A stretch of 64,000 bases of DNA from Lacipirellulaceae bacterium (GCA_040218535.1 JAVJRG010000005.1:1984001-2048000), one strand, 5' to 3'; counted from the first letter of the stretch, positions 6,077 to 56,884 are shown. Numbers and translations: made by a program. The notes: a model not told the origin generated them from the letters alone.

Positions 6077-7900
6077 ATGAGACCAATTCTATTTGCGGCT
6101 CTATGTTTGGCGACCACGCTCGTCCGTGCGGAAGTGCAGCCGAACATCTTATGGATTCTCACGGACGATCAGCGTTACGACTCGATCAGTGCTTTCAATC
6201 GTATGCTGCACGACCGCGATTCGAGTGAACTGGGTTATGTCGATTCCCCAAGCATCGATAAGCTCGCAAAGATGGGCACTACCTTTATCAACACGTTCTG
6301 CCAAGCGCAAGGCTGCGCACCGTCTCGCGCAACGATGCACATGGGCAGGTATCCGTTTCGATCAGGGGTGTATGAATTCGAGTACTTCAATAACAACGCA
6401 GAACATTGTCGGCCGATGCTTCCAGAGCAGATGGCCAAGCTGGGGTATCAAACATGCCATGTAGGCAAACTGGGAGTCCGGATCAAGACAGTCAAGAATG
6501 GCCGCGTGCGCCCTCACCAGATCTATCAAACCGACGTAAAGTTCAAGCAGATGCACAAGGATGGTCTCACCGGTTGGGGTAAAGATTGGTTCTATGAACT
6601 CGACGGAGTGAAGCTTATCCCTCCCATCAAGCAGCTTCGCTACTTCGTAACGCCCGAAGGAGAGTTCGAGTACGCGTCGCTAGAGCTCGAAAAACGAATG
6701 CCCAAGTACGCCGGATCAGCGGCTGCAACCATGAAGAAATACGACCTGTTGCGTCACTACAACAGGAAAAAGCCCAAGAGCCCTGACGAAGGGATGATCC
6801 TGGCTGGGGTTAGTTCCCAACCCGCTGGAAAAACCCGAGACGGGTGGTACACCACCGTGCTTGGTCAGTTCCTGGAGAACGAGAACCAGAGTTTCGCTGT
6901 CGGATCTCAAACCGTTCAGGGCGTTGATCCCGCCAGGCCGCTCTTCTGTCACCTTGGGTTCGACTTCCCACACACGCCTGTTCTGCCCCCGGCGGATTAT
7001 CGTGCCCGCTTTCAACAGCATACCTATAAAGTTCCAACTTTCGACGAGAGCGAACTCGAGTCGATGCCCGAGCAGCTACAGAAGCAAGTGACTCACGGCT
7101 TTTCCAACCATTTCTCGGACGAGCAGAAACAAGCGATGATTCAGGACTACTTCGCTTTCTGTGCCTACGGTGATTCGCTAGTTGGCCAAGCAAGCGAGGC
7201 ATTCATCGCGTACAGCCAATCACACCAGCAACCGTGGATGATCGTCTACGTTTGCGGCGACCATGGCTGGAAGCTCAATGATCACGGCTCGGTCAGCAAG
7301 TTCACTCCTTGGAAAATCGACTGCCACAATCCGATCATCGTGATTTCTTCCGACAAGGAAACCTTCCCCGCTGGCAAGGTCGTAAAGGACTTCACCGAGT
7401 TCGTTGATATTGCCCCCACCTGTCTGGCAGCGGGCGGCGCGAATTTGCAGGATCAAAAATTTGACTATCTGGATGGCTATGATCTTGCGAATGTCATTTC
7501 GGGAGAGATCCCAGCTCGCGATTACGTTCTCGGAGAGAGTCACGCCGTCACGGGGCCGCGAGCCTTCATTCGCACGGAGGACTTCGTCTTCTCCATGCAG
7601 ACCCGCCCACACCGAAATCGAGGAAAACAACTTGATTGGGCCCGTAGTGCATCTTGGGAGGACCTTGACCCGGCACTCTACCACATGCCGACCGACCCCC
7701 ATGAAACTCAAAACCTGGCACATGATAAGAAGTACAGTGAAGTAGCCGAAAAGATGCAGAAGAAATTGCTCAACATCGTCCTCGGTGACAATCGCGTCGA
7801 GGTGGACTGGGGACCGAAGGCAGACGGCACAGAGATCTATCGCAGTAATTTCGCCCCCGGCGCGGATGACAAGAAGTTAAATCTCACAGCGAAACAGTAG
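6077..7900 (+). CDS. S1 family sulfatase (formylglycine type) of the galactan locus
   Basis: A 607-residue sulfatase with a short signal peptide ([18 protein letters not shown]). The metal-binding start [14 protein letters not shown] and the maturation motif QGCAPSRAT (C-A-P-S-R, Cys80, converted to formylglycine by FGE or anSME) are intact, as is [11 protein letters not shown] near the second metal-ligand region. At 607 residues it is longer than the usual 450-550; the extra length sits in the middle (residues about 140-270). Position between GH86 and GH117 points to removal of sulfate from agar or porphyran oligosaccharides, for example L-galactose-6-sulfate; that substrate is inferred from context only. 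Confidence 0.92.
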
Positions 7901-9286: not shown

Positions 9287-9730
9287 TCAACTCTTCTGGC
9301 ACTGCCCACAGTGGCCGCGAATCATGATTTCGGTAATTGTACCGAGCTTCTCACGCCTCGGCCCTCTTGAGGGATTGATTTGAACCGTGAAGTCATTCAT
9401 GCAAGAGAGCTGCCCGCAATCGACACACATGAAATGCGGATGCGTGAACTCTGCCTTGTTGCTCGTTTCGCGCAATTCGAACCGCCGTGTCTGATCACCC
9501 AGGTCGAGTCGCGTGACAAGCTGAGCGTCGGCTAGCTCATTCAGGCAACGAAACAGTGTCGATTGGTCGAAGCCGAAGTCGGCAAAAGCTTCGACGACTT
9601 CCGCGTGGCTCATCGGGGCTCCCGTTGAAGCCAACAATTTCAGCACGGCCACCCGGGCTGCCGTCGCCCGGAGCGATGCATCGCGCAGGGCCTGCTTTGC
9701 CCACGCTGCATCAGATTCAGTTCTTTTCAC
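9287..9730 (-). CDS. zur: Fur-family metal-responsive repressor, probably Zur
   Basis: A 147-residue Fur-fold regulator starting with GTG at 9730. The N-terminal winged helix (LRATAARVAVLKLLASTGAPMSHAEV..STLFRCLNEL) is followed by the dimerisation domain with HPHFMCVDCG, a metal-ligand cluster, and the C-terminal pair GHCGQC; the two CxxC pairs form the structural zinc site of the family. Fur, Zur and PerR cannot be separated with certainty by eye. Zur is favoured by the facing operon of His-containing PEP-CTERM genes, one resembling Zur-repressed cyanobacterial proteins. Dyads at 9775-9881 lie 45-151 bp upstream of its start, suggesting autoregulation. Confidence 0.82.
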   Translation of the reverse strand: MKRTESDAAWAKQALRDASLRATAARVAVLKLLASTGAPMSHAEVVEAFADFGFDQSTLFRCLNELADAQLVTRLDLGDQTRRFELRETSNKAEFTHPHFMCVDCGQLSCMNDFTVQINPSRGPRREKLGTITEIMIRGHCGQCQKS

Positions 9731-12061: not shown

Positions 12062-12943
12062 ATGACTCAGACGAAGACTATCCTTGCCATCCTCGCTTGC
12101 ACCGCTTTAGGCATGGCAGCCACAAGGGCAGATGCGGTAAGCACCAGCGATCTTTCGCACTACTACATTGGCATCGACAACAACGAATTCGTGGGCTTCG
12201 GCCCGTACACAGGTCAGGTTAACCCGAACCATAACCGCGTGACGCTTCTGTTTAACCATTTGAGTTTGACCACGGTAGAGAACAGCCATTACCACCCAAT
12301 TGGCAACTATAGTTTGTCGGGTGACATTGGTAGTACGACGGTCGTACCTACCAATGGGAACAATCGTTTGCCGGAAACCTACACGGGGCTGAGCCTAGAA
12401 CTTGCCGCGGCACCTTCGGGCTCGCCTTACGACGGTATGCTCATTAGCGGCATGGGGGCCGGGTCAGCCGACGCCGAGTACGGGAATCTGGAGATTCGCG
12501 AGAACACAACGATTCCCGATACGGATGGCTACGGCCCGACCGGTCAGGCCGGCACCACGACCCTAGGTAACGCGGCGTACTACATGTACACCCGCGAGAG
12601 CCAGAACTTCACGCTGGCGCTCGATAACCTTGATCTGGAAATCGAACTCGTTGGTATCACGCCAGGCCTCGCCGTCGGCGACTCTGCCGGCAACGTGTTG
12701 ATGGACGAAGTCGGTGACACCGCACCGATCTTCGACAACGCTGGCAACTTTACACCGACGTTCTATACAGCTGCCGATGCCCCGCCAGGCGTTTACTCTG
12801 CATCGTTCCAGCTTAACGACAATAGCGGCACGTACATGTCGGGCGGCACGTTCCACTTCGACTTCTCCGTTATCCCCGAGCCGTCTTCGCTCGTGCTCTC
12901 AGCGTTCGCGACGATTCCGGTTTGTGGAATTCGCCGAAGATAA
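12062..12943 (+). CDS. all3515-like PEP-CTERM protein, putatively Zur-repressed
   Basis: A 293-residue protein with a signal peptide ending near TRADA and the tail IPEPSSLVLSAFATIPVCGIRRR. The N-terminal half reads SHYYIGIDNNEFVGFGPYTG, NPNHNRVTLLFNH, ENSHYHPIGNYS and NGNNRLPETYTG. From memory this resembles the cyanobacterial all3515 family, annotated as Zur-repressed PEP-CTERM proteins; I could not confirm it by search. The paired histidines (SHYY, FNH, SHYHP) look like metal ligands. With the upstream Fur-family gene and operator array it supports a zinc-starvation cluster. The operon assignment is uncertain because 214 bp separate it from the preceding gene. Confidence 0.68.
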   Translation: MTQTKTILAILACTALGMAATRADAVSTSDLSHYYIGIDNNEFVGFGPYTGQVNPNHNRVTLLFNHLSLTTVENSHYHPIGNYSLSGDIGSTTVVPTNGNNRLPETYTGLSLELAAAPSGSPYDGMLISGMGAGSADAEYGNLEIRENTTIPDTDGYGPTGQAGTTTLGNAAYYMYTRESQNFTLALDNLDLEIELVGITPGLAVGDSAGNVLMDEVGDTAPIFDNAGNFTPTFYTAADAPPGVYSASFQLNDNSGTYMSGGTFHFDFSVIPEPSSLVLSAFATIPVCGIRRR

Positions 12944-13024: not shown

Positions 13025-13417
13025 TTACGCTGCGACCAGCTGAGAGGTTTCATCAGCCGCCTCTGAAGTTGCCGGCTTATGCAACGAAACCACGAGTAGC
13101 ACAGCCCCTGCGTTTGCCCAGTAGTACCAAGCATCAATACCTGAAAAACGAAAAACAAAAGGCGCAACCCAAAAGGTAATACCAACTGCGAAGTCCACGG
13201 CAAGATGCAACTTGTATGGCAAGACGCGAAACACTCCCAAATGATGATTCGTTAGCAACGTAAGAACAAGCGCAGCGATTCCTGTACCTATTGCAAGCCA
13301 CCTCGCCATTGGATGAGAACTTCCTAAACCGAGCAAAAGTGGAGCCGTCATCAAACTAAAAGCAACCGGATAGTCCAAGAAAGCGTGAATACGTTTCGTT
13401 ACAAATCGCACATTCAT
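13025..13417 (-). CDS. Small SPW-type membrane protein, ECF regulon member
   Basis: The start at 13417 (MNVRFVTKRIHAF) is preferred because AAGGAGA lies 7-8 bases upstream, inside the longer in-frame reading from 13438. The 130-residue product has four hydrophobic segments (AFSLMTAPLLLGLG; WLAIGTGIAALVLTLLT; DFAVGITFWVAPFVF; WANAGAVLLVVSL) and resembles SPW-repeat/DoxX-like small membrane proteins of unknown function. Its leader carries a perfect 15-bp dyad, and a promoter matching those of the neighbouring ECF sigma operon lies at 13493-13520. It therefore probably belongs to the same stress regulon. Confidence 0.75.
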   Translation of the reverse strand: MNVRFVTKRIHAFLDYPVAFSLMTAPLLLGLGSSHPMARWLAIGTGIAALVLTLLTNHHLGVFRVLPYKLHLAVDFAVGITFWVAPFVFRFSGIDAWYYWANAGAVLLVVSLHKPATSEAADETSQLVAA

Positions 13418-13463
13418 CTCGATATCTCCTTGAATCATTTAGTTTCGCCTGGAGTTAAGGAGC

Positions 13464-13478
13464 CAGGGAAGTTCCCTG
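13464..13478. repeat. Perfect 15-bp dyad in the leader of the membrane-protein gene
   Basis: CAGGGAA-G-TTCCCTG is a perfect inverted repeat, 47 bases upstream of the start at 13417 and downstream of the putative ECF promoter. It could be an operator or a leader hairpin; nothing in the sequence decides between them. Confidence 0.45.
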
Positions 13479-13492
13479 CTCTCAGGAGATGA

Positions 13493-13520
13493 GGTGCTGA
13501 AGAGTACGAGAATCTTACTT
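13493..13520 (-). promoter_or_regulatory. Putative ECF promoter for the membrane-protein gene
   Basis: On the minus strand, AAGTAAGAT (13520-13512), 12 bases, then CAGCACC (13499-13493) match the two promoters at 15.05-15.14 kb (AGGTAAGAT-N12-GAMCACC) in element and spacing. It points at the gene starting at 13417. Confidence 0.6.
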
Positions 13521-13571
13521 CAAGCAAGCGGCAATTGCGCAATACAAGAGGTTCAATGCGCGAGTAGGTGC

Positions 13572-14150
13572 TTATGTCAGGTTCTTAATTCGACGCCTGA
13601 GATACGGCAATACTTCGCTCGCAAACCAAGGGTTATTCTTAAGCCACCGATTGTTTCTCGGGCTCGGATGCGGGAGGGGGATCGCTGCAGGTCTAAACTC
13701 CCTCCAAGCCTGCAGGGTCTTCGTCAGTGTTGCCTTGTTTCGCTTTCCTAACCGATACGCTTGCGCGTAACGACCAATGACCAAGGTCAGTTTCACAGCT
13801 TCTAGTTGCCCAAGTAATCGCTCATGCCAGAGTGCAGAGCACTCTTTTCGAGGAGGCAGGTCACCAGACTGACCAGTACCCGGATAACAGAACCCCATCG
13901 GCACGAGAGCCACCTTACGAGGATCGTAGAAATCGTCACTCGTGATGCCCATCCAGTCGCGGAGTCGGTCGCCACTAGGATCGTTCCAAGGAACCCCCGA
14001 CTCATGCACGCGTGCCCCAGGTGCCTGCCCGATAATCAAGATGCGTGAAGCCTTATGCGCTGCAAGAATTGGGCGTGGTCCTCGCGGCAACTCTGCTTCA
14101 CACTCACGGCAATCGCGGATTTCACTTAGCAAAGAATCCACGGTACTCAT
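13572..14150 (-). CDS. Uracil-DNA glycosylase family protein
   Basis: Start 14150 (MSTVDSLLSE) is chosen because its ATG overlaps the anti-sigma stop as ATGA; the longer reading from 14207 would run deep into that gene. The 192-residue product has the UDG superfamily signature: an N-terminal C-x2-C (RDCRECEAEL), motif GQAPGARVHESG followed by PWNDPSGDRLR, and the C-terminal PLPHPSPRNN motif. It is expected to excise uracil or related lesions. Family 4/5 UDGs use four cysteines for a 4Fe-4S cluster; I see only the first pair clearly, so it looks like a cluster-free COG1573-type relative. Translational coupling to an ECF sigma/anti-sigma pair suggests stress-induced DNA repair. Confidence 0.82.
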   Translation of the reverse strand: MSTVDSLLSEIRDCRECEAELPRGPRPILAAHKASRILIIGQAPGARVHESGVPWNDPSGDRLRDWMGITSDDFYDPRKVALVPMGFCYPGTGQSGDLPPRKECSALWHERLLGQLEAVKLTLVIGRYAQAYRLGKRNKATLTKTLQAWREFRPAAIPLPHPSPRNNRWLKNNPWFASEVLPYLRRRIKNLT

Positions 14151-14389
14151 GGGTTCGCCATCTCCTCGCCGAGGGCTGCTTTTAAGGTTTCGAACTCTTC
14201 CCGACATTCACCGCAGCTTTCGAGGTGTTCGTCGATACGCTGTAATCCTGCAGGGATTGATTTCCCTGAAAGAGTTGTCTCAGCGAACTCAGCCATGTGC
14301 TGCATGCACTGACCGCAATCAGCCTCATCATCCTTGGTGTTGGAGAGCATGCTGAGCAAAGCTTGAACTTGTTCGTCAGTGATCTTCAT
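14147..14389 (-). CDS. Zinc-finger anti-sigma factor (ZAS type)
   Basis: An 80-residue soluble protein with DCGQC near the middle and HLESCGEC (H-x3-C-x2-C) near the end, the zinc-binding signature of redox-sensing ZAS anti-sigma factors. No membrane helix is present. It overlaps the sigma stop by ATGA and the UDG start by ATGA, so the three genes form a translationally coupled operon. It should bind and silence the adjacent ECF sigma factor until the zinc cysteines are oxidised or the zinc is lost; that trigger is inferred from the family. Confidence 0.82.
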   Translation of the reverse strand: MKITDEQVQALLSMLSNTKDDEADCGQCMQHMAEFAETTLSGKSIPAGLQRIDEHLESCGECREEFETLKAALGEEMANP

Positions 14390-15003
14390 CGTGATGTCCT
14401 TTGGTTGGGGGCCAAGTCCTCGCGAGAGTACCCGGCTTCAAGCATACCCTTCTTCAAACGCTTTCGTGCATCATGAACCAGTTTGTAGATCGCATTTCGA
14501 TTGCTCCCGGTGCGACGTCCAATTTCTTCCTGCGGCATGCCCTGAAGTTCAGCCTGCAGTGCAATTCGTTGCTTATCCGTGAGTTGCTCGCGAATAATTT
14601 GTTGCATCTTCTCGATCATTTGGGCACGCTGCATCTCTCCTTCAGCACTACTCCCAGAACTGCTCTGCCGAATGGCCGTCGGCTGGCTTTCTTGGAGCTG
14701 ATCAAGCGACACGTCTTTCCAGCGCCGTCTTCGCATCTCGGTCATTGCGATGCGAATCGTGATCGTCGTTGCCCAAGTCGTGAACTGGCTACGGCCCTGG
14801 AAGTCGTTCAATGAGTCAAGGACTGCTAGGAGTCCGTCTTGAACCGCATCCTCAATAAAGGCCTCATCAACTTTCGCATTCGAGTAGAAGGCTCGCTCGA
14901 GTCGCCTCCGCAAGAGCTCACGAAGTTCAGTGAGAGCACTCTCCTGCTCCTCTCCAGAATTCGAGAGTTTTGTTACCCACTCTTGGCCCAAAGCTTGCGT
15001 CAT
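14386..15003 (-). CDS. ECF-type RNA polymerase sigma factor
   Basis: A 205-residue sigma factor. Region 2 reads AFIEDAVQDGLLAVLDSLNDFQGRSQ with FTTWATTITIRIAMTEMRRRR (about 48-95). Region 4 reads LTDKQRIALQAELQGMPQEEIGRRTGSNRNAIYKLVHDARKRLKK (about 142-185). Its promoter at 15054-15081 matches that of the divergent YHS operon, which implies autoregulation. It is translationally coupled to a ZAS anti-sigma factor. Confidence 0.92.
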   Translation of the reverse strand: MTQALGQEWVTKLSNSGEEQESALTELRELLRRRLERAFYSNAKVDEAFIEDAVQDGLLAVLDSLNDFQGRSQFTTWATTITIRIAMTEMRRRRWKDVSLDQLQESQPTAIRQSSSGSSAEGEMQRAQMIEKMQQIIREQLTDKQRIALQAELQGMPQEEIGRRTGSNRNAIYKLVHDARKRLKKGMLEAGYSREDLAPNQRTSR

Positions 15004-15053
15004 ATCTTATCATCGCTGCGATTTCGTCAGGACAAGTCCAGCACCCGACCTAT

Positions 15054-15081
15054 GGTGTTCTAGCACACGGAGATCTTACCT
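15054..15081 (-). promoter_or_regulatory. Putative autoregulated ECF promoter of the sigma operon
   Basis: On the minus strand, AGGTAAGAT (15081-15073), 12 bases, then GAACACC (15060-15054), 51 bp before the sigma start. Element and spacing are shared with the divergent promoter at 15114-15141, and the two copies point outward. Confidence 0.68.
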
Positions 15082-15113
15082 TTAGAAGAATAATAATGCG
15101 ATTTTTAGTTGGC

Positions 15114-15141
15114 AGGTAAGATTCGCTCCGATTCGACCACC
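15114..15141 (+). promoter_or_regulatory. Putative ECF promoter of the YHS-CMD operon
   Basis: AGGTAAGAT (15114-15122), 12 bases, then GACCACC (15135-15141), 46 bp before the YHS start at 15188. The first block forms a perfect 9-bp inverted pair with 15073-15081. Confidence 0.68.
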
Positions 15142-15187
15142 TCAAGGGGTATTGAAATCCCTTCCACCTCAGAATGGAGAATCCGAA

Positions 15188-15667
15188 ATGAAGACCACTC
15201 AACAAACAGCGATGTTGGCTCTTTCCCTCTTGCTGGGTTTAGCGGCGAATTCAGCAAAGGCAGAATCGCGTGCGTACCTGAACAACAACAATATTCCGAG
15301 TAGCGGCTTGGCGCTCGAAGGCTACTGTCCCGTGGCTTACTTCGCAGTAAATAATCCAGTCATGGGAAAGAAGGAATACTCGGTCGACCACAAGGGAGTG
15401 ATCTATTACCTCGTGAACGCAGATGCCAAGGCTGAGTTCTTGAAGAATCCAGAAAAATACGTACCCGCCTATGGTGGCTGGTGTGCCTTCGGAATGGCGA
15501 TTGGCGATAAGTTTCCCGTTGACCCGACCAATTTCAAGATTGTTGATGGCAAACTCCATGTGTTCCTGAGGAACAAGAAGGTTGACGCCCTAAAGCTTTG
15601 GAACAAGGGCCAGGAGAAAGAGCAGGTGAAGAAAGCTGCAGCACACTGGAAAAAAGTCAACAAATAG
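15188..15667 (+). CDS. Secreted YHS-domain protein
   Basis: The start at 15188 (MKTTQQTAMLAL) follows GGAG; a longer reading from 15152 lacks such support and would include promoter-proximal sequence. The 159-residue product has a signal peptide cut near SAKAES and a single YHS domain: LALEGYCPVAYF, KGVIYYLVNADAKAEFLKNPEKYVPAYGGWCAFGMA. YHS domains are short, often metal-associated modules of unclear role in secreted proteins. It is the first gene of the divergent ECF-regulon operon, 35 bp before the CMD gene. Confidence 0.87.
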   Translation: MKTTQQTAMLALSLLLGLAANSAKAESRAYLNNNNIPSSGLALEGYCPVAYFAVNNPVMGKKEYSVDHKGVIYYLVNADAKAEFLKNPEKYVPAYGGWCAFGMAIGDKFPVDPTNFKIVDGKLHVFLRNKKVDALKLWNKGQEKEQVKKAAAHWKKVNK

Positions 15668-15702
15668 CTCAACTCGTTAAACCTGCTCAAAGGAGTAATC
15701 AC

Positions 15703-16248
15703 ATGCCTAGAATCAATCCTGTGAAAATTGAAACGGCCAATCAGAAAACGCAAGAAATCTTAGCCACCGTCAAGAAGAAGATGGGAAGAGTTCCAAACCT
15801 GATCTCGACCATGGCCCAGGCTCCGGCAGTTGCCAACGCCTATCTCGGATTCAGCCAAGCTCTAGCGACCGGAAATCTTCCGGCCCGCCTGCGAGAACAA
15901 ATTGCTCTAGCTGTCGGTGAGGCGAACTCTTGCAATTACTGCGTCTCAGCGCATACGGCGATCGGTAAAGGAGTCGGCTTGGACGAAACCTCCGCGCTAG
16001 CGGCGAGACAAGCTTCTGCTGCCGAGGGTCGGTCACAGGCAGCTCTTGAGTTTGCTCAGAAGCTTGTTCAAGCCCGTGGCAAAGTGACGGACGCTGACTT
16101 CAATCAGCTCAAAACGGAAGGCTTCAGTGAGGGCGAGATTGGGGAAATCGTCGCAAATGTTGCGCTGAACATCTTCACTAATTACTTTAACCATGTTGCC
16201 GACACCGAGATCGACTTCCCGGTTGCTCCTGAACTGGTCAGTGCATAA
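15703..16248 (+). CDS. Carboxymuconolactone decarboxylase/AhpD-like protein
   Basis: The start at 15703 (MPRINPVKIE) has a good Shine-Dalgarno AAAGGAG; an in-frame reading from 15598 would overlap the YHS gene. The 181-residue product shows the CMD core with EANSCNYCVSAHTAIGK, whose Cys-x2-Cys and following His form the AhpD-like peroxidase or alkylhydroperoxidase site. Length and motif match the peroxidase-related CMD subfamily rather than the protocatechuate pathway enzyme. Cotranscription with the YHS gene under an ECF promoter, opposite a zinc anti-sigma factor, suggests a role against oxidants. A strong hairpin terminator follows at 16265. Confidence 0.87.
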   Translation: MPRINPVKIETANQKTQEILATVKKKMGRVPNLISTMAQAPAVANAYLGFSQALATGNLPARLREQIALAVGEANSCNYCVSAHTAIGKGVGLDETSALAARQASAAEGRSQAALEFAQKLVQARGKVTDADFNQLKTEGFSEGEIGEIVANVALNIFTNYFNHVADTEIDFPVAPELVSA

Positions 16249-16264
16249 GTCTTGCATTCTGTGG

Positions 16265-16299
16265 GGCATCGCGAGTGTAATACTCGCGATGCCTTTCTT
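16265..16299 (+). terminator. Rho-independent terminator after the YHS-CMD operon
   Basis: A perfect 12-bp stem, GGCATCGCGAGT (16265-16276) with ACTCGCGATGCC (16282-16293), GTAAT loop, then TTTCTT. It lies 17 bases after the CMD stop. Confidence 0.88.
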
Positions 16300-55480: not shown

Positions 55481-56884
55481 ATGAAGAAGATTCCCTTTGC
55501 AAGCCTTCTTTCTGTCTTGCTGGCAGTATCAAGACTAACGCATCCTCAATGCCACGCTGAGCCGACTGAACCTCTCAGCCAACGCCCAAACATTCTGTTC
55601 CTCTTCACAGACGACCAGCCGGCGAATTGCACGGGCTACTCGGGCAACCAAGCGATTCAGACTCCTAACTTAGATACGCTTGCGCGTCGCGGGACGGTGT
55701 TCAACAACGCTTTCGTGACGACTGCGATTTGTTGCAGCAATCGCGCATGCCTGATGACAGGTCAGCCAATGCATCGTCATGGCATCAAAGATTTTCGCGC
55801 GCCGCTCTCGAAGGAGGCGTTTGCCAATACCTATCCAGCACTACTGCGAAGAGCCGGCTATCGAACTGGCTACCTAGGAAAATACGCCATCGGAAATCCC
55901 AACATGCATCCCGAGGAGGCCTTACCAAAGTCTGAGTTCGACACCTGGTATGGATTTCCGCAGAGTATTTCATTCAAGCAATCGGTCAACGGCGAACCCC
56001 GATACCTCACAAGCGTGATGACCGAGAAGGCGATTGATTTCTTTGAGGAGGAAGACGACAGACCGTTCTGCCTAACGGTCGCCTTCAAGGAGCCTCATGG
56101 CCCGTTCAGTTATTTCGATCCAAACGTTGAGGACCCCTACGAGAATGTGGAGCTACCACCATCGCCAACATTCACGAGAGAGGATTTCCAAAAACAACCT
56201 CCATTCATTCGCAATTCGCTAAACGCATCAAGCAGTAGCGAGTTCCTTGCGAACCGAGATCGCCATCAGCAGTATTTGCGCACGTTTTACCGGACCGTTA
56301 CCCGTGCCGATCAAGCCGTGGGAGAAATCCTTGCCGCGCTCAAGCGTTTAGGATTAGACAAAAACACTGTGGTCATCTTCTCTTCCGACCACGGGGACCA
56401 CCTGGGCGATCATGGGTTGACTGGCAAGTGGCTGATGTACGAGAGCAGCATTCGCGTACCTCTGATTATCTACGACCCTCGTCCCAAGCAACAATCGTCT
56501 GCACAACGAGACGAACTCGTTCTCAGCCTAGACATTCCAGCGACCATTATTTCCCTTGCTGGACTGACCGTCCCAGAAACGATGGAAGGACGAAGCCTGC
56601 TGCCGCTGCTGCACGGTAAAAAACCAGAGTGGCGATCTCACTTCTATTACGAACATACTTACACGCCAGAAGACAAGAAACGTCTGCCAATTCCACGGAC
56701 CGAAGGCATTCGCACGGAACGCTGGAAGTACGTCCGCTACCCCGAGCAGAGCCCGGTGTTCGAGCAATTGTTTGACCTTGATGCCGATCCGCTTGAGCAA
56801 CACAACCTCATTGCGAGTAAGCAGTGGCAGGAAATGGCAGATCGATTACGACGACTATGTGACGCCGAGGCGCCGCGACCATAA
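55481..56884 (+). CDS. S1 sulfatase with non-canonical C-C-S-N-R maturation motif
   Basis: A 467-residue sulfatase with signal peptide to about QCHAEP. NILFLFTDDQPANCTGYSG, IQTPNLDTLARRGTVFNNAFV, GYLGKYAIGNPNMHPEEAL, VAFKEPHGPFSYF, VIFSSDHGDHLGDHGLTGKWLMYE and LFDLDADPLEQHNL are typical. The maturation motif is C84-C-S-N-R instead of C-x-P-S-R: Pro becomes Ser and Ser becomes Asn. The Cys-x3-Arg frame survives, so formylglycine formation may still occur, but this needs checking. A sulfatase on the same strand starts 21 bp downstream. Confidence 0.87.
   Translation: MKKIPFASLLSVLLAVSRLTHPQCHAEPTEPLSQRPNILFLFTDDQPANCTGYSGNQAIQTPNLDTLARRGTVFNNAFVTTAICCSNRACLMTGQPMHRHGIKDFRAPLSKEAFANTYPALLRRAGYRTGYLGKYAIGNPNMHPEEALPKSEFDTWYGFPQSISFKQSVNGEPRYLTSVMTEKAIDFFEEEDDRPFCLTVAFKEPHGPFSYFDPNVEDPYENVELPPSPTFTREDFQKQPPFIRNSLNASSSSEFLANRDRHQQYLRTFYRTVTRADQAVGEILAALKRLGLDKNTVVIFSSDHGDHLGDHGLTGKWLMYESSIRVPLIIYDPRPKQQSSAQRDELVLSLDIPATIISLAGLTVPETMEGRSLLPLLHGKKPEWRSHFYYEHTYTPEDKKRLPIPRTEGIRTERWKYVRYPEQSPVFEQLFDLDADPLEQHNLIASKQWQEMADRLRRLCDAEAPRP

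Follow-up and report, generated by a model that had tools for sequence, protein, structure and literature searches.

The locus studied here raises the question of whether three similar sequences, each lying 5' of a gene or operon, are promoters read by one adjacent extracytoplasmic function (ECF) sigma factor, and to which signal such a regulon would respond. It occupies positions 13,025 to 16,299 of a window of 64,000 nucleotides from a Lacipirellulaceae bacterium (GCA_040218535.1 JAVJRG010000005.1:1984001-2048000); all positions of the window are counted from its first letter. The minus strand carries an operon of sigma factor, anti-sigma protein and a protein of the uracil-DNA glycosylase (UDG) superfamily, in this order, followed by the gene of a small SPW-domain membrane protein with a site of its own; divergent from the sigma gene are the genes of a YHS domain protein and of an AhpD-like protein of the carboxymuconolactone decarboxylase (CMD) family. 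The best explanation of the whole, to which we give a probability of about 0.85, is a self-regulated ECF regulon for oxidant defence in which the sigma factor would be released by redox signals; judged by their conservation, the three sites are almost certainly promoters of the adjacent sigma factor.

All three sites consist of the -35 element GTAAGAT, a 15-base spacer and the -10 element CACC, and are identical at all these fixed positions. The predicted promoter of the sigma operon (15054..15081, minus strand) has GTAAGAT at 15079-15073 and CACC at 15057-15054, 51 bases 5' of the sigma ATG; that of the YHS-CMD operon (15114..15141, plus strand) has them at 15116-15122 and 15138-15141, 47 bases 5' of the YHS ATG; and that of the SPW gene (13493..13520, minus strand) at 13518-13512 and 13496-13493. 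When the sequence was re-checked, all three were found at the coordinates and on the strands at which a previous sequence-only reading had placed them. The fixed spacing in that reading stands as well; its boundaries, given as N12-GAMCACC, do not, and are better drawn as N15 plus CACC as the -10, the bases 5' of the -10 being weakly conserved in orthologues. Scans built on the N12-GAMCACC boundaries gave nothing convincing in orthologous loci, and the element was redefined by inspection of the upstream regions there. With up to one mismatch, GTAAGAT-N15-CACC matches the window three times, at precisely the three sites, where a mean of 0.64 is expected. Most relatives have C(A/G)TC as the -10; CACC is shared by the three window sites and, in the nearest relative (L061), by one site of two (7890). 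The core promoter is accordingly written as GTAAGA-N15-C(A/G)(T/C)C.

The own genome (5,355,217 bases in 13 contigs) was covered by pattern searches, as the sequence-only reading had proposed. The strict motif, AGGTAAGAT-N11..13-GANCACC, proves infrequent: its only two matches in the 5,355,217 bases are the two divergent sites (control matches 0), which, together with the conservation of the element across genomes, upholds the earlier judgement that the arrangement is hard to explain by chance. The SPW site (13520-13493) has two mismatches to this motif, being one of 10 such sites in the genome, with 12 having two or fewer; in this form it is by itself without significance and therefore needs independent support. 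Outside long open reading frames (ORFs), the genome-wide matches to GTAAGAT-N15-CRYC and GTAAGA-N16-CAYC comprise the three sites and one doubtful one (L154). The other matches, nearly all within ORFs, were rejected as extra targets, as was a match in the window at 55761, which falls within an ORF of 468 codons.

Support comes from the relatives. At E <= 1e-25, the sigma factor has orthologues in 26 of the 296 genomes of the same order that were searched, the own genome counted; others are found in a metagenome-assembled genome of Pirellulaceae (JANQLU010000060.1) and, within the phylum, in further orders and classes. Their loci repeatedly contain the anti-sigma and CMD genes, and less often SPW, YHS, DUF488, DUF417 and UDG; in a distant one (L203), the YHS, sigma, anti-sigma, CMD and UDG genes are all co-directional. 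Most of these loci have GTAAGA-N15-C(A/G)TC-N-AA, mostly 60-180 bases 5' of the first gene of an operon, some using a 14-base spacer; in most related Planctomycetota loci the element precedes either the sigma gene or neighbours coding for CMD, SPW, YHS, DUF417 or MsrP proteins. Orthologous sites stand before the SPW gene in L066, L069, L092, L192 and L191. In L104, a truncated SPW frame (7110-7178, minus strand) is found between the DUF417 and UDG genes, 3' of a GTAAGAT-N14-CGTC site.

The training sites were chosen by their GTAAG, which makes counts of the -35 circular; this is countered by a test of spacing, a leave-locus-out scan, a comparison with sigma-negative genomes and loci from outside the order. 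When sites are selected on GTAAGA alone, 27 of them have C[AG]TC at an offset of exactly 16, whereas the other offsets have 1.1 on average; none of eight control hexamers gives such a peak. The leave-locus-out weight matrix gives 77 matches scoring above 9 in the loci as against 18 in reversed sequence, with the top scores at operon heads, and the element is also seen in loci outside the order from which the matrix was built (L196, L197, L198, L200, L204 and L205). In its strict form, the element has 24 matches in the 26 sigma-positive genomes and 38 in the 270 sigma-negative ones (Poisson p 1.6e-12). Among CMD loci, a site is present in 14 of 16 where the genome is sigma-positive and in none of 14 where it is sigma-negative, and SPW homologues occur in 8 of the 296 genomes, all eight of them sigma-positive (p 1.2e-9). 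The SPW genes of G100 and G266 have their site although they lie on a different contig from the sigma gene; G266 has a further site, on a third contig, before an MsrA gene. These unlinked sites speak against mere hitch-hiking of neighbouring DNA.

Most distal matches in the other sigma-positive genomes fall within ORFs and were rejected; only two resemble real targets, both in G266, one being the MsrA site and the other a site before the gene of a small membrane protein (L206 1445-1975, minus strand) that has no match in Pfam or NCBIfam. The reading frame of this gene contains a TGA (CGSGG-TGA-LPP), with a strong stem-loop after it; this codon could specify selenocysteine.

The conservation of the motif across genomes, its co-occurrence with the sigma factor and the unlinked targets support the claim of an autoregulated regulon of an ECF sigma factor and a zinc anti-sigma (ZAS) protein that extends over three transcription units. 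Conservation of the promoter, co-occurrence with the sigma factor, gene content and the invariance of the zinc-site residues are established by computation. These residues belong to the anti-sigma protein (14147..14389, minus strand; 80 residues), which is small and apparently soluble and has the pattern C25...H55-x3-C59-x2-C62, that is, the Hx3Cx2C motif with an upstream cysteine that marks class I zinc anti-sigma factors; C25, H55, C59 and C62 are invariant in 28 aligned orthologues and C28 is present in most. Its profile has RsiW as the best solved match (E 0.002), and so has its structural model (pLDDT 75), where the match is modest (Z 5.3, root-mean-square deviation 2.3 over 52; Foldseek E 0.7) and where Foldseek finds nothing significant. 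With 19.3 bits, far below the cut-off of 62.5 of TIGR03988 (anti-sigma-R of the mycothiol system), the protein falls outside the RsrA family. Zinc anti-sigma factors of the soluble kind frequently act as sensors of the redox state inside the cell (PMC7406223).

In the mechanism that we propose, the sigma factor would read a -35 of GTAAGA and, after a 15-base spacer, a -10 of CACC (C(A/G)TC in most relatives), and would drive its own operon (sigma, anti-sigma and UDG-like genes), the divergent YHS-CMD operon and the SPW gene. In the unstressed cell, the small zinc-type anti-sigma protein would hold the sigma factor; oxidants would hit the cysteines of its zinc site and set the sigma factor free, and this release would induce the AhpD-like CxxC enzyme, the YHS protein, the small membrane protein and the UDG-superfamily protein. 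We infer the binding between sigma and anti-sigma protein, the redox release, the inducer and the functions of the proteins from these comparisons.

The likely stress is indicated by genes that, in relatives, lie downstream of the site or next to it. These code for MsrP in L103 and L106 (440-450 bits against a cut-off of 207), for a methionine-rich lipoprotein with MMKDG/MMKDD repeats in L106, for thioredoxin in L100, and for DUF417 proteins, whose sole NCBIfam match is RclC. Next to MsrP, in L103 4901-6685 and L106 1515-3245 (minus), MsrQ is apparently fused to an FAD/NAD/2Fe-2S reductase, a natural reading of which would be a self-contained electron supply for MsrP. Methionine-sulfoxide repair, a methionine-rich lipoprotein, an RclC-like DUF417 protein and thioredoxin as putative targets, together with the AhpD-like CMD protein, make a thiol- and methionine-oxidising agent the likely signal, and that the regulon responds to oxidants is, from its gene content, probable. 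A Brucella ECF sigma factor whose -35 is GTAA responds to hypochlorous acid (HOCl) by induction and controls an MsrP-MsrQ system as well as a methionine-rich peptide (PMC8315932); in Pseudomonas, the AhpD-like CxxC protein RclX is required for resistance to HOCl and hypothiocyanous acid (HOSCN; PMC7950407); rclC mutants of E. coli are sensitive to HOCl (PMC7464077); and an AhpD-like enzyme reportedly degrades hypochlorous acid (PMC9751292). These counterparts make reactive chlorine the leading candidate signal, which, by analogy, we put forward tentatively, at slightly less than an even chance. The broader proposal of an undescribed, Planctomycetota-wide response to HOCl or HOSCN, with the small cytoplasmic zinc anti-sigma protein as sensor and YHS, SPW, DUF488 and UDG-superfamily proteins as new defence factors, we regard as possible and on balance doubtful.

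Several observations weigh against the assignment of the sites to this sigma factor or against a role in oxidant defence: no clear site precedes the sigma gene in L093, L095, L098, L199 and L201-L203; the CMD homologues of sigma-negative genomes (47-55% identity) have diverged further than most of those in sigma-positive genomes, where two distant CMD genes likewise have no site; most SPW genes adjoin the sigma gene, so that their co-occurrence is partly linkage; the DUF417 proteins score below the NCBIfam cut-off for RclC; and MsrP, MsrA and the methionine-rich protein are found in relatives, not in the window. Chance resemblance of unrelated sequences could draw on the SPW site, taken alone as one of the 12 with at most two mismatches in the earlier form of the motif, but is made negligible by the fact that the two exact sites in 5.36 Mb are both at the module and that the element is conserved in relatives and in other orders. 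A reading in which the element is the promoter of another ECF sigma factor, or the operator of a DNA-binding regulator, with the adjacent sigma gene merely as a target, would fit the richness of planctomycete genomes in sigma-like genes and the several weak matches found per genome; it is nevertheless very improbable, as the element is asymmetric, always directed towards a gene, near-constant in spacing and similar to ECF -35 and -10 elements, as it tracks the adjacent sigma factor across genomes, and as the region-4 segment SNRNA(I/V)YKL.HDAR is highly conserved together with the -35.

As to the signal, the sequence-only reading had proposed redox or metal stress; the redox part is supported and is narrowed by the target set to thiol and methionine oxidants, and the metal part finds nothing to support it. 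The zinc site of the anti-sigma protein and a gene of a Zur-repressed family adjoining the module would speak for metal stress, yet none of the loci examined has a metal exporter, chaperone or uptake gene under a site, and we consider this signal very unlikely. A general thiol, peroxide or electrophile stress, akin to the disulfide stress sensed by RsrA, is a serious possibility that we rate below even odds: it agrees with the frequent role of soluble zinc anti-sigma factors as redox sensors, with thioredoxin and AhpD-like proteins as targets and with the presence of MsrP or MsrA in some relatives only, while methionine-sulfoxide repair, a methionine-rich lipoprotein and RclC-like DUF417 proteins recur in known responses to HOCl (PMC8315932, PMC7464077) and speak for reactive chlorine specifically.

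Among known systems, BcrS-AbcS of Brucella (ECF16; SigF-NrsF type; PMC8315932) resembles the module in having an autoregulated ECF sigma factor, a divergent target operon and a GTAA -35, and its targets, MsrP/MsrQ and a methionine-rich peptide, have counterparts divergent from the sigma gene in some relatives of the module. It differs in that AbcS is a six-helix membrane protein of the DUF1109 family, whereas the anti-sigma protein of the module is of the zinc type with 80 residues, in its -10, which is CGAA instead of C(A/G)TC or CACC, and in its MsrP, which the window does not have; with no DUF1109/NrsF six-helix membrane anti-sigma protein and no CGAA -10, the module falls outside ECF16 in spite of the shared GTAA. 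RclR-RclX of Pseudomonas and RclR-RclABC of E. coli (PMC7950407, PMC7464077) share with it, as types of target, an AhpD-like CxxC enzyme and an RclC/DUF417-type membrane protein, but are under an AraC-type regulator instead of an ECF sigma factor. The class I zinc anti-sigma factors RsrA and RsiW have the HxxxCxxC zinc motif in common with the anti-sigma protein, which may also have their small helical domain and in which, unlike in RsiW, no membrane segment is apparent. To judge by its sequence, the module behaves like other regulons of ECF sigma factors with zinc anti-sigma factors and has target types in common with ECF16. ECF41 proteins have a fused C-terminal regulatory domain and no anti-sigma partner. 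In that group, as in the module, the ECF sigma gene adjoins a gene of the carboxymuconolactone decarboxylase family (PMC3426412); the sigma factor of the module, in contrast, ends after region 4 and has an anti-sigma partner.

Within the searchable papers, neither literature searches on this set of genes nor those on sigma factors of planctomycetes with a hypochlorite response returned a description of the regulon, in agreement with the earlier remark that it was not known as a described one. Planctomycetes have many ECF sigma factors, few of them with a known promoter or regulon; for the sigma factor of the module, the promoter is defined, a set of targets is known by prediction and the proposed inducer can be tested, and the poorly understood SPW, YHS, DUF488 and UDG-like proteins would be assigned to oxidant defence. 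Should reactive chlorine prove to be the inducer, a regulon dedicated to it would be present in environmental bacteria distant from the pathogens studied.

The sigma factor itself (14386..15003, minus strand; 205 residues) matches Sigma70_r2 and Sigma70_r4_2 above cut-off and TIGR02937 with 70 bits against 42.9; it has neither region 1.1 nor region 3. With regions 2 and 4 only, and with an autoregulatory promoter predicted before its operon from sequence and conservation, it has the features of the ECF group (sigma-70 group 4). The junctions between the sigma and anti-sigma genes and between the anti-sigma and UDG genes can both be read as 4-base ATGA overlaps; owing to the overlap with the anti-sigma stop codon, the UDG gene (13572..14150, minus strand) probably starts at 14150 and not at 14207, as in the listed ORF. 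Its product belongs to the PF03167 superfamily, as the sequence-only reading had it, and with 18.4 bits against the cut-off of 125.3 of TIGR00758 is not of family 4; the DNA repair proposed for it is an assumption, since the nearest solved structure, 3ikb, is uncharacterised, and a literature search returned nothing that connects UDG with chlorinated bases. UDG homologues are located near orthologous sigma genes in L093, L104 and L203. The SPW gene is placed at 13025..13417 (minus strand), the start at 13417 having a better ribosome-binding sequence than that of the longest ORF at 13438. On the plus strand, the YHS protein (15188..15667; NF041384) has an apparent N-terminal signal sequence, and the CMD protein (15703..16248), AhpD-like and peroxidase-related by TIGR01926 (84 bits against a cut-off of 81.8), has the pattern E-x11-C-x2-C-x3-H, found in all 16 loci checked. 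Close to the module, at 12062-12943, lies a gene whose product matches NF040463 (all3515 'Zur-repressed PEP-CTERM' family) with 195 bits against 75, and 2.3 kb beyond it an ORF (9287-9730) that, on inspection of its sequence, appears to code for a regulator of the Fur/Zur family.

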